From Heterostelium album PN500 (Eukaryota > Evosea > Eumycetozoa > Acytosteliales > Acytosteliaceae), in assembly GCF_000004825.1 (NCBI RefSeq), contig NW_008805072.1, forward strand, positions 936,435 through 1,000,434: a stretch of 64,000 nucleotides of DNA, read 5' to 3'. The notes under the pieces are model-generated. The model was given only the letters and a program-made list of their open reading frames with translations. It was not told the origin of the DNA and did no database searches. The position numbers and the translations under genes are program-made. This document shows, one piece after another, positions 42,247-56,979 of the stretch (position 1 is the first letter of the stretch; each line of letters begins with the position of its first letter).

Positions 42247-43291
42247 ATGAACGAATATAGATGTCCTAGCAGAGAAGACTGGGTTACACTTGCAAATATA
42301 TTTAGTTTAGAGTATGAGAGTTGTAGTATTAATGAAAACAAGGATTATAAAAAGTTAATGCATAAGTTTTCAGAAGATTCTCCTGCTATTAGATATTCAA
42401 AACAGTTTAGTATCGATCCAAACAATATTATTAAATGTCTTAAACTACCTAAAACTCGATCATTATTAATGCTAGTTGTAAGTATGCCTTTTAATCTATA
42501 TCTATTATATTTTTATTAAAATTTTTTTTTTTAAAAAAAAAGAAAAAGCCTAATGATCAAATCAACATATTACAACTAAACAATCTTTATGAAGAGTTAA
42601 ACACCAGTCTTTCAAATCCACATCCAAAAAGAAAAAGCAAGCAGGAACTAATAAATGCTAAAAGGAAACATAGGCATACAATAACAGAACTACAACAACA
42701 ACAACTAAATAATAAAGATCATACAATAACGGAACTACAACAACAACTAAACAATAAAGATCATGCAATGGCAGAGCTAAAGCAACAATTAAATAATAAA
42801 GATCAACAAATAGAATCATTAAATAATAAAGTGCATACAGTAACCGAACAACAACAACAATTAAATATTAAAGATCAACAAATAGAATCATTAAATATAG
42901 AATTAAACAATTTAAGACAAAAGTATCAAGAGTTGAGTCAGCATTTTGAAGATTTCCGAGATTCTGTTGAAGGGTATATCGCTCGAGATATCGATATGAA
43001 ATTCAGCAACAACCCAGGCAAAGTTAAAGCAGTTGTAGTTGGTAAGTAAACTATATAGTTATATTTTATTTGAATAAAACTAATCATATTTTTTTAGAAC
43101 CAACAAAGGAGAGAGATGAACTCGTTGTAAAGATTGAAACCCTTCTAAAGAAAAGCCCTGGTCTCAAGGATACTATTTTCTATTCTCTGCTGTCTGATCA
43201 GATTGATACCTTAATCAGTAAAAGAGGTACGTGGTCTGTCAACACTTCTATTTGCACAGACGCTGAAGCATCATGGAAAGAAGCTAATTAA
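42247..43291 (+). CDS. Gln/Asn-rich coiled-coil protein, 3' end broken
   Basis: Exons 42247-42477, 42543-43041, then 43098 up to a stop at 43289-43291. The first ~77 residues are an unknown conserved-looking domain. Residues ~105-200 are a heptad-rich coiled coil built of about five degenerate repeats of the type LQQQLNNKDHxITE, whose DNA is a minisatellite with units of about 36-48 bp. A shared short domain follows (REDELVVKIETLLKKSPG-like). After the codon for residue ~290 the frame hits a stop, while clear coding signal goes on in the +1 frame at ~43263-43394 and returns to the first frame at 43397-43612. I therefore think the 3' end is frameshifted or the assembly has an indel here. Confidence 0.55.
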
Positions 43292-49109: not shown

Positions 49110-49494
49110 TTTTATTTGAATACTTTTATAATTGGTATTATTATTTGTAAATCTGTTTTAAATGATTGTCGATTCATTCTTATAGTTAATATTAATTCCT
49201 TTATTTTTCCTCTTTTTAATCAAAAAAATTCAGTCCAAAATTAAAATTTTTGTGAACCACTGCGATAGTGACTGATAGGTAAGTCGTTAGTATTTTAATA
49301 TACAAAAATTTTTTAAATTTGGACTGAATTTTTGGAGAGAGGGTGACAGATAGATGTTAAGTGTTACAATAAATAATAGAAATCAAGATATCTCCTTTTA
49401 CTCAGCAGGTAATTTGTAACATTAAGTGTAGAAATTTTTTACTGTTGAACAGTGTTTTTAAATGAGTTTGTTGAAAAGGAAGCAAATCAATATC
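49110..49494. other. Spacer upstream of the tRNA locus
   Basis: 385 bp with no gene. It contains the inverted-repeat element listed separately and, just before the tRNA-half array, a sequence (about 49474-49494) resembling the 3' part of the 61-bp repeat unit. Confidence 0.45.
49225..49333. repeat. 109-bp inverted repeat (hairpin or MITE-like element)
   Basis: The arms are 49225-49253 and 49302-49333. The outer 16 bp (49225-49240 against 49318-49333) pair perfectly, then an inner 11 bp (49243-49253 against 49302-49312) pair perfectly with a few unpaired bases between. The 48-bp middle contains a smaller inverted repeat CACT..AGTG (49258-49270). This could be a miniature inverted-repeat transposon, or the template for a structured RNA. 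Target duplications are not obvious. Confidence 0.6.
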
Positions 49495-49738
49495 GTGTCT
49501 TTGCCCGAGTGGTTTAAGGGGCTAGTTTTAGGTAAAATAAAAGAAGATCAATATCGTGTCTTTGCCCGAGTGGTTTAAGGGGCTAGTTTTAGGTAAAATA
49601 AAAGAAGATCAATATCGTGTCTTTGCCCGAGCGGTTTAAGGGGCTAGTTTTAGGTAAAATAAAAGAAGATCAATATCGTGTCTTTGCCCGAGCGGTTTAA
49701 GGGGCTAGTTTTAGGTAAAATAAAAGAAGATCAATATC
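49495..49738 (+). repeat. Four tandem 61-bp repeats each carrying a tRNA-Leu 5' half
   Basis: Units begin at 49495, 49556, 49617 and 49678. Each has the 38-nt 5' half of the tRNA-Leu(UAG) that follows (acceptor strand, D arm with A box, 5' side of the anticodon stem and loop through base 37), then a 23-nt AT-rich linker containing AAGATCAATATC. The halves match the true tRNA exactly except that the first two units have GTGG and the last two GCGG in the D loop. Copies lack the 3' half and the B box. See the findings for why the break point matters. Confidence 0.9.
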
Positions 49739-49820
49739 GTGTCTTTGCCCGAGCGGTTTAAGGGGCTAGTTTTAGGCACTAGTGTAGTAATACGCGTGGG
49801 TTCGAACCCCACAAGACACA
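49739..49820 (+). tRNA. tRNA-Leu (anticodon UAG)
   Basis: 82 nt including discriminator A. Acceptor stem GTGTCTT/AAGACAC, D arm CCCGAGCGG...GGG, anticodon stem CTAGT/ACTAG with loop TTTAGGC (anticodon TAG, codon CUA), a variable arm GTA-GTAA-TAC, and T arm GTGGG-TTCGAAC-CCCAC, all fully paired. It is the only copy in the array with both halves. It has no intron. There is no run of four or more T on the sense strand for about 400 nt downstream, so the usual Pol III terminator is missing or far away; the anticodon loop itself contains TTTT. Confidence 0.95.
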
Positions 49821-49829
49821 ATAACATTC

Positions 49830-50745
49830 AAAAAATGTTGGACCGCATGCGGCAGAGGATGTCAACAAGATCAAATCTGCTAGCACTGATGGTCAGTTCC
49901 AATTAAACCAATTCTGATTGATGGTCTACCACCCACTCTAAAGCAAATCTACGACCACCTATTGTTCGTCAAACATGGCATTCCACCACTAACTGATGGT
50001 CAGTTCCAACTATCGCTACCACCAACCAAATTCGACTACACATCTTACGACTGTATCTTCACCTATATTTCGCTCATCAAACACCAACGTGGACGAAACA
50101 CTGTCTTCCGGTTCTTCTCTCGTTCACTTCCTGGATTAGCTTACAACAAAAACAAAGAATGTGAACTGTGCTTCACATACTGCTCTGACCCATATTTCCA
50201 TACATTCTTTAATTGTCGAGCAGTTATGCACAGATTCAACCTTAACACCATTTTTGACTCCTTACAGCTTTCAGGTGGTCAACGATTCGATTGGACTATG
50301 GAAGACGCGTATCAGTTGGTTAGAAGAAAGGACAACATCACTACTCTCGCTTCACTTGTCTTTCATCAAATCTGGAAATTCTATTGTAAATCCTATTTTG
50401 GAGGTACTCCTCTCCACGATAACAACCTACTATCTAATGAATCTATCATTAACGAATATATACAGCACTTATCAGTAATGAAATTAATTATAAATAACAG
50501 TATCAGTAACTTACAATCCAAACTTAAATAACCAATAACCAATCAAATGTCAGCCAACTATTATTTCCTCTTCTTCATTTCTTCATTTTCAAATTAACCA
50601 ATTCAATCATCAGTATTCTCATCAGCTTAACAATCTATTAATATCAATAACTTAAATAATTATAATAATAATCAAAATAGCAATCAATTGCAGAATTATG
50701 AAAAAGTAAAAACTGTAAAAAGCAAAAAAAAAAAAAAAAAAAAGA
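49830..50745 (+). mobile_element. 5'-truncated non-LTR retrotransposon (TRE-like) downstream of the tRNA
   Basis: Starts about 10 bp after the tRNA and ends in an A-tail (about 50724-50743). The open frame 49962-50531 (about 190 codons, readable somewhat upstream too) has the C-terminal Cys/His motif of LINE ORF2 proteins: ECELCFTYC followed by HTFFNC. The endonuclease and reverse transcriptase regions are missing, so it is a truncated copy. Dictyostelid TRE elements integrate beside tRNA genes, and the position just downstream fits the TRE3 type. The phrase ACTGATGGTCAGTTCCAA occurs at about 49884 and again at about 49992, perhaps from template switching at the 5' end. Composition is richer in C than neighbouring DNA. 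Confidence 0.65.
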
Positions 50746-53564: not shown

Positions 53565-54386
53565 TTATTTAAACTTAAACATTGTAGAAAGAAGCTCTTG
53601 TCTCTTCTCTGGTGTAATAGATTCTTTTACTTTTTCACCGTTTGGTTTTGTAATTGTAAGTGTATCGCCTGTCATTGTTGCTTGACCTTGACTTGGCTCT
53701 AATAGAATGGCAGTTAGTGGTATAGCGTTGAATGTCTTTAGTTCATCTATATGAATGATTTCTTGGGCTTTGTTTATTGATTCAACACCGACTTGATCCA
53801 GTGTAAAGGTATATGCCAGATGGAAATCTTCGTCGGGATTCGGTCGTAATTCTAGACTGTGAGTACCATACTCTGTTGGTTTGGCAAGCCATCTGTATTC
53901 ACCGGTACGTGATGATATGATCGATTGGAAAGGAATCGGTGCCAATGCCAAAAACAATCCGAATCCAACATCAATTAGATATTCTGAATTGTTGTGTGTG
54001 AGTAGGGTGATGCAATGTCCAAACGGTGCTGCCCAACGATCTTTGGTAATTTGATTCCAAACTGTACCGATCATCTGCTTCACTTGGAATCCACAATCGG
54101 TCAGGAAGAAGTACATCAGTGTATTCAAATGATAACACAAACCACCTTGACTCTTAACCAACACCTTTTCGATGAGATAGTCTTTGGTGATACCTGAAGG
54201 TTCCAGACCGATAACATCAGAGTTTTCAAATGGAATGTTACTGGCAAACATTCTCATTACCTGAGGCAAGTCATAAAACTCAATCTTTTTGTTCTCATCA
54301 ATGTTTATTCTTCGAAGAAATTGTTTTTGAAAATCTGTATTATTATTATTTGAAACGGAAGCGGCAGCAGCGTCTATTTGTGTCAT
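53565..54386 (-). CDS. Arylamine N-acetyltransferase, copy 1
   Basis: Single exon of 273 residues, the usual NAT size. The catalytic triad is visible: Cys in GGLCYHLN, His in FGHC, Asp in LIDVGFG. NATs transfer acetyl from acetyl-CoA to aromatic amines and hydrazines. The RRINIDENK start and IPFEN segments are also family typical. It is tandem with a closely related copy at 54913-55749. No intron and no signal peptide; cytosolic. Confidence 0.95.
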   Translation of the reverse strand: MTQIDAAAASVSNNNNTDFQKQFLRRINIDENKKIEFYDLPQVMRMFASNIPFENSDVIGLEPSGITKDYLIEKVLVKSQGGLCYHLNTLMYFFLTDCGFQVKQMIGTVWNQITKDRWAAPFGHCITLLTHNNSEYLIDVGFGLFLALAPIPFQSIISSRTGEYRWLAKPTEYGTHSLELRPNPDEDFHLAYTFTLDQVGVESINKAQEIIHIDELKTFNAIPLTAILLEPSQGQATMTGDTLTITKPNGEKVKESITPEKRQELLSTMFKFK

Positions 54387-54912
54387 GATTGAAAATTGTT
54401 TGAATTGATGTAGAAATATATATTTATAAATCTAATAAATAAAATGTTTACATATAACTAGGATATTGTTAAATTAAGTAATTATATAAATAAATGATGG
54501 TAGTAGTAATACAAAAGTGATAAATATATGTATTTATAAAAAAATGATCAAGTGTTAAAAAAAAAAATAGATATGTTTATTTTTAAAGTAATCTAGAATG
54601 TTCTTTGACAACCTATGCATTATGTTTCTACTAAAATATCATTTTGTTGACATTTTTAAAACGAATATTCTATACTTTAAAGATAATGTTGTCAAAATGA
54701 ATTAACACAGATTTGTGCGTCGTTTGACAAAAACACCAGGAAAAAAAAATTAAATCACACAGGTGGTTACATCAAAAAAAATTATAAAAGGGTTTTTTAT
54801 TAAAAAATTTTGTTTACAATTAAATATTGCCTCAAAAAAAAAAATATCTGATAAAATTATAAACATATTTGTTACTCTAAAATAAATGATAATCAGATTG
54901 ATTATGAATTAT
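54387..54912. other. Spacer between NAT paralogues
   Basis: 526 bp AT-rich with no gene. It contains the promoter of copy 1 and the 3' flank of copy 2. A slightly G/C-richer patch lies at 54705-54745. Confidence 0.4.
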
Positions 54913-55749
54913 TTATTTTTTCTTAAATTTAAATATTGTTTCAAGTAGTTCTTGTCTTTTCTCGTTTGAGATCAATTCCTTTACTTTTTCACCATTTGGT
55001 TTTGTGATTGTAAAGGAGTTGCCAGAGATGGTTGCTTGACCCTGACTTGGCTCTAATAAGATTGTTGACAAGGGAATGGAATTGAATTCTTTATGAGTGT
55101 CACCATGAATAAGTCTTTGGATGTTATCGATTGATTTTCCATCGATTGGATCCATTGTAAAGCTATAGCCAAGTCGAAAATCTTCATCTGGTGACGGTCT
55201 CCATTCAAGACTGTGTGTTCCATACTCTGTTGGTCTAGGAATCCATCGATATTCACCTGTTCTCGAAAAGACCACCGTTTTGAAAGGTATGGGTGCCAGT
55301 GCCAGAAACAATCCGAATCCAACATCCACAAGATAGTCGTTGCCGTCGTAGGTGATCATAGCAATGCAATGTCCATTGGGTGTAGCCCAACTTTTATTAG
55401 TAACAGGATTCCAAACAGTTGCTACCAATTGTCTAACATGGAATCCACACTCCACCAGGAAGAAATACATTAATCTGTTTAAATGATAACACAGCCCACC
55501 TTGATTCTTCACCAATACCTTTTCTATTAAATACTGTTTGGTAATACCACAAGGCTCTTGGCCTATAACATCAGAGTTTTCAAAAGGAATGTTCAAACCA
55601 AACTGTCTCATGACCTCTGGCAAATCTTCAAACTCTATCCTTTTATTCTCATCGATATTTATTCTTCTTAGGAATAGTTTTTGAAACTCTGTATTACTAT
55701 TGTTGTTATTATTGTTATTGTCGTTTTTTGAAATACTAAGGATTGCCAT
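54913..55749 (-). CDS. Arylamine N-acetyltransferase, copy 2
   Basis: Single exon of 278 residues with the full triad: Cys in GGLCYHLN, His in NGHC, Asp in LVDVGFG. It matches copy 1 (53565-54386) along its whole length, and both end in a Lys-rich FKF(K) tail. The N-terminus has an Asn-rich run (SKNDNNNNNN). The conserved residue before the active His differs (Phe in copy 1, Asn here), which may shift substrate preference. Tandem duplication of a bacterial-type xenobiotic enzyme. Confidence 0.95.
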   Translation of the reverse strand: MAILSISKNDNNNNNNNSNTEFQKLFLRRINIDENKRIEFEDLPEVMRQFGLNIPFENSDVIGQEPCGITKQYLIEKVLVKNQGGLCYHLNRLMYFFLVECGFHVRQLVATVWNPVTNKSWATPNGHCIAMITYDGNDYLVDVGFGLFLALAPIPFKTVVFSRTGEYRWIPRPTEYGTHSLEWRPSPDEDFRLGYSFTMDPIDGKSIDNIQRLIHGDTHKEFNSIPLSTILLEPSQGQATISGNSFTITKPNGEKVKELISNEKRQELLETIFKFKKK

Positions 55750-56979
55750 GATGATAATAATCTCTATAGATATAATTATTAAATATATACATTTAAAGAA
55801 AAAGAAATTTCTAAATGATGAATAGATTCACAAACATTGCAATATTTATAAGTTAATAATCAGAATTTTTAACCAATATTTTCATTTGAGAGTCTTCATG
55901 GTGGTTACTTTAATTACCAAAAAAGGAAGATCCTTGTAAAAACAATTTATTAAAATTTTTATTTTTTTGCCCAGGACAACAATTATTAATATTATTATTT
56001 TTTATTTTTGCTAAAACTAAAAGTTTATTTTATATTTAAGTTATGAACGTCTAAATATTTAAATATCTAACAAAGTTAACAAATATGTGTCAATATATAT
56101 TAAAATAAATTAATAAAATAAAAGAATAGAATATTCTTTTTTGATTTAGAATACTGAATGATATCACAATGAAAAAAAACGACGTTTAATATTTTTTTAA
56201 ATTTTAAAGTTAAATTTCTGAGAGGGTGCGGGTCTGTGCAAAAAACCAATAAATCATTTTATTAATTCAAATAAATTCAAGATATTAGGTGTCGTATTCG
56301 ATATTTGTTTTTTAATAAAACCCCTATTTTTTTACTATTCAACATCACATATTATTCGTAAAGTAATACAACTTTATGACCAATCACTATAGTTATCATT
56401 GAATTTAAATTGTAGTGTTTTCTATTTCTATTTAAAATCAATCATATTAGATAATTTATACCAACCACAAAACAAAAACACCAAGAATCAATCAATCAAA
56501 AAATAAACAGTGTGGTAATAATCGCAAGATAGTTGATTGATTTGACTATTTATACATTATTCATTATATAATAATAATAATTTCACAATATCAAAAAATA
56601 GCGATTACAACATTGTTGTTGTTTAATATTACTTTATTTAATACATTTATTTTAATTTATTTATTTTTATAATAATAAATTAAAAAAAAGAAATAATCAA
56701 ATAATTTCTATTGCAATATCTCTATATTTTTATCTAATCTAAAACAAATCAATCATCATTGTTATTATAATTATAATTATTATCATTATCAATATTATCA
56801 CAAATCAGATTTATTTTTACATAATTAAAATTTAATATTATTTTTATATGTTTGCATGCATTCTCCATTTTCATTAATAAATAAATATATATAACCTAAA
56901 CAATTAGTATTATATAGATATATATATATATATATAAACATCAAACTATAACTAAATAGATAGGATAGGATAGGATAGG
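55750..56979. other. Long divergent intergenic region
   Basis: 1.23 kb AT-rich between NAT copy 2 and the MFS gene. A/T homopolymers and ATAT runs dominate. GATAG occurs five times in tandem just before the MFS start (about 56959-56978). A G-richer patch (GAGAGGGTGCGGGTCTGTG) is at about 56219-56237. No gene supported. Confidence 0.45.

Follow-up and report, generated by a model that had tools for sequence, protein, structure and literature searches.

A tandem array of tRNA-Leu(UAG) 5' halves, each ending after position 37, ahead of one complete gene in Heterostelium album PN500

Recombination, slippage and the pausing of replication forks have been associated with tRNA genes (PMC2888827; PMC2652664). 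Among the Amoebozoa, the tRNA arrays of Entamoeba are described as carrying tandem repeats beside the tRNA genes, which are attributed to slippage, unequal exchange also being possible (PMC2652664). Here we describe a locus of Heterostelium album PN500 that resembles those arrays in having tandem repeats next to a tRNA gene. Unlike the Entamoeba repeats, which are presented as short, intergenic and microsatellite-like (PMC2652664), its repeated unit holds a precise tRNA 5' half. The halves are broken at the same place, between positions 37 and 38, as intron-containing eukaryotic tRNA-Leu(UAG) genes, whereas the only complete gene of the locus is intronless. None of the top matches of our literature search was recognised as describing a tandem array of tRNA 5' halves, although this does not prove that none has been reported.

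The locus lies in a window of 64 kb (the whole stretch of DNA analysed, 64,000 nucleotides) with an A+T content of 68.0% (GC 0.3199). TRF delimits a repeat at 49486-49776 with a period of 61 bp, 4.8 copies, 99% matches and 0 indels, one of two tandem-repeat regions in the window that score at least 100. These head-to-tail, near-identical units, falling within the 10-100 bp of minisatellites, place the array in that class. It is not a chance occurrence. Five 5' halves of tRNA-Leu, each of 38 nt (G1 to G37), follow one another (Table 1); the fifth continues straight into a 3' half to give a complete gene, and the other four are each followed by a linker of 23 nt, identical in all four cases and composed of TAAAATAAAAGAAG (14 nt) and ATCAATATC (9 nt), the latter being common to the 5' flank of the first unit. 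The anticodon loop, read off the sequence as T32 T33 T34 A35 G36 G37 C38, gives the anticodon UAG and places the end of all four truncated units right after G37, exactly at the 37/38 position. The sole difference among the five halves is one D-loop base, T in units 1 and 2 and C in units 3 to 5. The initial annotation had already read the stretch as four 61-bp repeats of the tRNA-Leu(UAG) 5' half, each stopping after base 37, with linkers ending in a common 5' flank and a D-loop base that sets the first two units apart, and the TRF result and the loop numbering bear out this description. As the annotation states, there is a single 3' half at the end of the array; it forms one uninterrupted, intronless piece with the fifth 5' half. 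An ungapped scan of both strands of the window, allowing up to 12 mismatches for the 5' half and up to 14 for the 3' half, found no further copies of either, and exact patterns from the 5' half had 0 matches in viral contigs (26-base pattern) and 0 in prokaryotic genome contigs (30-base pattern).

Table 1. Features of the tRNA-Leu(UAG) array and of the sequence downstream of it (window coordinates)
Feature	Position	Strand	Details
Leader, 9 nt	49486-49494	+	ATCAATATC, ahead of unit 1; every linker ends in the same 9 nt, which may be a target-site duplication
Unit 1	49495-49532	+	tRNA-Leu(UAG) 5' half, nt 1-37 (38 nt); D-loop T
Linker 1	49533-49555	+	23 nt, TAAAATAAAAGAAG + ATCAATATC
Unit 2	49556-49593	+	5' half; D-loop T
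Linker 2	49594-49616	+	same sequence as linker 1
Unit 3	49617-49654	+	5' half; D-loop C; identical to the 5' half of the complete gene
Linker 3	49655-49677	+	same sequence as linker 1
Unit 4	49678-49715	+	5' half; D-loop C
Linker 4	49716-49738	+	doubles as leader of the complete gene
Complete tRNA-Leu(UAG) gene	49739-49820	+	intronless, discriminator A included; ARAGORN; Rfam RF00005, 54.1 bits; stems written out
B box	49799-49809	+	GGTTCGAACCC; sole B box of the array
Open frame, 213 aa	49890-50531	+	contains a C-x2-C...H-x4-C motif; probably from the C-terminal part of a TRE3-like non-LTR retrotransposon truncated at its 5' end
Run of 20 A	50724-50743	+	probable poly(A) end of the TRE3-like element

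Several other features of the window were recorded in passing. The second tandem-repeat region (42675-42911) combines overlapping periods of 42, 72 and 114 bp in three overlapping rows. Upstream of the array, 49224-49333 contains inverted-repeat arms of 31 nt, 87% complementary and 48 nt apart, possibly the remnant of a small MITE-like DNA transposon. A microRNA precursor was considered at 49209-49342 and rejected, all Rfam matches there being far below the gathering scores and best taken as fortuitous hits on an inverted repeat rich in A+T. Between this inverted repeat and the array, TTAAGTGT occurs as a direct repeat at 49357 and 49422, and the region 49357-49429 holds an 8-nt inverted repeat, TGTTACAA (49362-49369) and TTGTAACA (49414-49421), seen by eye and possibly forming a small RNA-like stem. 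Asparagine-rich proteins, also noticed by eye, are encoded in the window, as are two neighbouring arylamine N-acetyltransferase genes on the minus strand (53565-55827; Pfam Acetyltransf_2), which likely derive from a local gene duplication. A published table gives A+T contents of 77.6, 68.0 and 66.2% (PMC4334915), which we assign, going by the sequence of its references, to D. discoideum, P. pallidum and D. fasciculatum respectively; with the asparagine-rich proteins, the 68.0% of the window is suggestive of a dictyostelid close to P. pallidum.

The complete copy is the one tRNA that both ARAGORN and Rfam find in the window. It presents the features of a functional gene, namely a cloverleaf with paired stems and a Leu-type variable arm, the UAG anticodon and both an A and a B box, and it lacks the contiguous order of 5' half, 37/38 intron and 3' half of an intron-containing gene, its 3' half following directly after G37. 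A scan for promoter elements agreed with the annotation in finding five A boxes and one B box. In all five units the A box stands at +8 after a +1 G, a position typical of Dictyostelium discoideum tRNA genes (PMC5391098), and the units are the same apart from the one D-loop base; all five A boxes, that of the complete gene included, are one base off the stringent D. discoideum motif and fit the permissive motif. The distances from the start of the A box to the start of the B box are 298, 237, 176, 115 and 54 bp for units 1 to 5. A distance of 30-60 bp is reported to be critical for efficient transcription, and D. discoideum genes to have 32-57 bp, by a measure that may differ by about 10 bp from the start-to-start one used here (PMC5391098); for yeast TFIIIC, whose binding requires the B box, 31-93 bp between the boxes are given (PMC11724288). 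Since the upstream A boxes are 115-298 bp away from the only B box, only the last unit is at a normal distance, and we infer that it alone fits the promoter spacing. On balance, the upstream units probably represent A-box-bearing debris that supports, at most, weak upstream Pol III starts.

The sequence downstream of the complete gene contains an open frame of 213 aa that bears a C-x2-C...H-x4-C motif, which we take to be typical of the C-termini of non-LTR retrotransposons, separated by untranslated sequence from a run of 20 A. The frame had 0 matches in Pfam (E <=0.001 and <=10) and 0 in PDB (E <=1), and a search for relatives in viral contigs returned 10 pattern-matching stretches, of which 0 were confirmed. 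The open frame begins 70 bp 3' of the tRNA gene. Across dictyostelids, TRE3 elements are reported to lie 14-450 bp 3' of tRNA genes, including 26-138 and 57-151 bp in P. pallidum (PMC5006619). Judging the family from its position, its orientation in the same direction as the tRNA gene and its poly(A) end, the element at 49890-50743 is probably a 5'-truncated TRE3-like one. Within it, two copies of a 21-nt piece, 95% identical and 107 bp apart, stand in different frames, so that the 5' part of the element looks rearranged. No run of four or more T, and thus no Pol III terminator close 3' of the gene, was found in 49821-50250, the first such run being TTTTT at 50251; 8.7% of random window positions have to wait as long as these ~430 bp for one. 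The terminator of the complete gene therefore seems to be missing or displaced by the downstream element, and the gene may produce long trailers. Of the transcripts mapped from A/B-box loci in Dictyostelium, two have their 3' ends behind a run of T5 or T6, whereas a third lacks a neighbouring run of T; the authors do not claim to have proved them Pol III products (PMC5391098). We consider it rather probable that the last copy, which alone has both halves and the B box, is the only working gene that can be predicted in the array.

The explanation that we favour, with some though not strong confidence, is a local duplication of the leader and 5' half in which 14 nt of filler were added, followed by slippage or unequal crossing-over, with the last copy as the only one that works. 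The array would have started when an ordinary tRNA-Leu(UAG) gene without an intron suffered a break or a fork collapse, the repair of which would have duplicated a 47-bp piece (the 9-nt leader plus nt 1-37) together with the filler. The resulting 61-bp unit would then have been amplified to four extra copies, presumably by replication slippage or unequal sister exchange, and a single D-loop change arising during this amplification would have split units 1-2 from units 3-5, leaving a small satellite derived from a tRNA gene. The perfect 61-bp register, the four identical linkers and the intronless complete gene that ends the array argue for such a duplication, and, given that the copies are nearly identical, the array looks recent or homogenised. 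Plain unequal crossing-over, kept as a simpler fallback in the initial annotation, falls within this explanation. The order of events is deduced from the sequence of a single genome, and the tandem duplication is most likely neutral. Against it stands the break exactly at the canonical intron site, which a duplication treats as chance; under uniform breakpoints over the gene this position is expected about once in 81, a coincidence noticed post hoc. The filler opens as the reverse complement of the bases before the break, forming a 5-bp stem (TTTTA-GG-TAAAA). A stem of that length is given by 2.1% of 872 local 14-mers, a figure also obtained post hoc in a search space of our own choosing, and its location across the break hints at fold-back templated synthesis of the filler. 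We also considered whether the linker descends from the upstream flank by divergence and set this aside, as the 8 of 14 positions that agree are equalled by 13.8% of local 14-mers.

Two other origins, a fossil intron and a retroposed half, would account for the precise position of the break at 37/38. The first, which we regard as unlikely, supposes that the ancestral gene had a 37/38 intron of which the 14-nt A-rich linker is a remnant, that recombination between this intron and the 5' flank made the units, and that the last copy lost its intron later, perhaps when an intronless paralogue converted it. Besides the exact break in four of four truncated units, it can draw on the prevalence of introns in the tRNA-Leu(UAG) genes of Saccharomycetaceae, most of which are described as intron-containing, and on the known conversion between like tRNA genes (PMC4090602); the former agrees with the statement of the initial annotation that these genes carry 37/38 introns in some eukaryotes, yeast included. 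Taken as an intron, the linker also offers three consecutive anticodon-intron pairs (U32-A, U33-G and U34-A), but the fourth (A35-A) fails, and 17.8% of local intergenic 14-mers reach three pairs too, which makes this pairing weak evidence of an intron. The intronless complete copy moreover demands an additional precise intron loss in just that copy, and we recognised no evidence of dictyostelid introns of this kind in the literature searched, as judged by titles and the beginnings of abstracts. Retroposition appears slightly less likely still. Mature nt 1-37 with an A-rich tail would have been reverse-transcribed upstream of the gene by tRNA-targeting non-LTR machinery and then amplified; TAAAATAAAAGAAG would then be the tail and ATCAATATC the duplicated target site. 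The layout of flank, ATCAATATC, nt 1-37 plus 14-nt tail, ATCAATATC and gene fits this, TRE5-A insertions are reported to bear duplications of 10-16 bp (PMC9012585), the D. purpureum element Dp_NLTR-A to sit 2-6 bp upstream of tRNA genes (PMC5006619), and mammalian retropseudogenes of 3'-truncated tRNAs typically to end in loops (PMC5322556). Yet the insert would have to match by chance the very isoacceptor beside which it landed, and the duplication measures 9 bp (10 counting G1). The A-richness of the filler (10 of 14) leans slightly toward a tail and away from a simple duplication, at least 10 A occurring in 2.5% of the 14-mers of the whole window, but in the local set, which is raised by including the poly(A) end of the downstream element, the figure is 10.1%; as evidence of a poly(A) tail it is weak. 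The 9-10 bp repeat and the 14-nt A-rich stretch can equally be read as a 47-bp duplication with filler.

To a functional array, whose upstream units would give transcripts that are joined by splicing at 37/38 to the common 3' half or that yield free 38-nt 5' halves, we give very little credence. The A box and the +1 G spacing preserved in the five units speak for it, as does the 32:-3 pair, which is kept when the 61-nt stretch is read as a 37/38 intron, although two of the next three pairs of the four-pair anticodon-intron helix described for a human TSEN substrate and complex fail (PMC10539383). Modelled transcripts starting at units 1 to 4 point both ways. In unconstrained ensembles their 3' acceptor strand pairs with their own first unit (0.907-0.947), and when a cloverleaf is forced, the first unit beats the last by 1.1-1.9 kcal/mol in all four transcripts (ensembles of -82.7 vs -80.9, -69.1 vs -67.2, -55.0 vs -53.8 and -40.0 vs -38.9 kcal/mol), so that cloverleaves with upstream first units are no less stable than with the last, a point against the duplication that we prefer. 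By contrast, the anticodon stem in the unconstrained ensembles forms with the last unit (0.21-0.51) far more than with the first (0.002-0.021), the favoured ensemble being a hybrid, and the forced cloverleaves lie 6.6-6.8 kcal/mol above the unconstrained ensemble, compared with 4.5 for the cloverleaf of the normal gene above its own. Upstream-start transcripts are thus predicted to fold mainly into hybrids rather than into tRNA, in a model that ignores tertiary contacts, modifications and co-transcriptional order. Because even the normal gene by itself is predicted to have a fold of lower energy than the cloverleaf, the folding evidence is weak either way, and it decides nothing between the explanations. 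A single B box, with upstream A-B distances of at least 115 bp, argues against transcription of the upstream units, and because the halves differ by one base, joining alternative ones would give nearly the same tRNA and almost no variety. Nothing in the sequence indicates that the extra halves yield usable tRNA. The elaborate version of this idea, with interchangeable 5' exons, Pol III starting at any upstream A box, and an endonuclease removing 61, 122, 183 or 244 nt at 37/38 or freeing regulatory 38-nt halves, so that array length would tune the output of tRNA-Leu(UAG) or of 5' halves, deserves hardly any credence. The initial annotation had suggested that the array may have arisen from an intron-containing gene and that its upstream halves could be spliced to the 3' half; this is weakly supported in view of the intronless complete copy, the one-base difference, the 115-298 bp between A and B boxes and the two failed pairs of the anticodon-intron helix. 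An assembly artefact, through inflated copy number or misjoined units, is likewise highly unlikely: short units that are almost identical are well known to mislead assembly, but the array is shorter than 300 bp and the T/C difference falls in two blocks, unlike the plain stutter of one unit.

If its origin is ordinary, the locus offers a clean record of a tRNA gene seeding a small satellite and gathering spare A boxes. If, on the other hand, the 37/38 break is not due to chance, the locus would preserve the trace of a lost tRNA intron or of the retroposition of a tRNA half, events that are difficult to observe as they happen. Beyond the amoebozoan arrays, the presence of several 5' parts and one 3' part recalls the split tRNAs of Nanoarchaeum equitans and the tri-split tRNAs of Caldivirga. 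Those are described as separate, trans-spliced transcripts that provide different anticodons (PMC4390854; PMC4090602), whereas in this array the 3' half is already joined to a 5' half and all the 5' halves are copies of the same one. A fragment identical to the 5' half of tRNA-Thr in Caldiarchaeum provides a parallel as a lone 5' half left by rearrangement, although, in contrast with the array described here, it is not tandem (PMC3293823). Retropseudogenes of 3'-truncated tRNAs share with the present units a 5' part that ends in a loop and a possible flanking duplication; in mammals they are reported as numerous and tailless (PMC5322556), whereas the copy in this array sits beside its own parent type and has been tandemly amplified.
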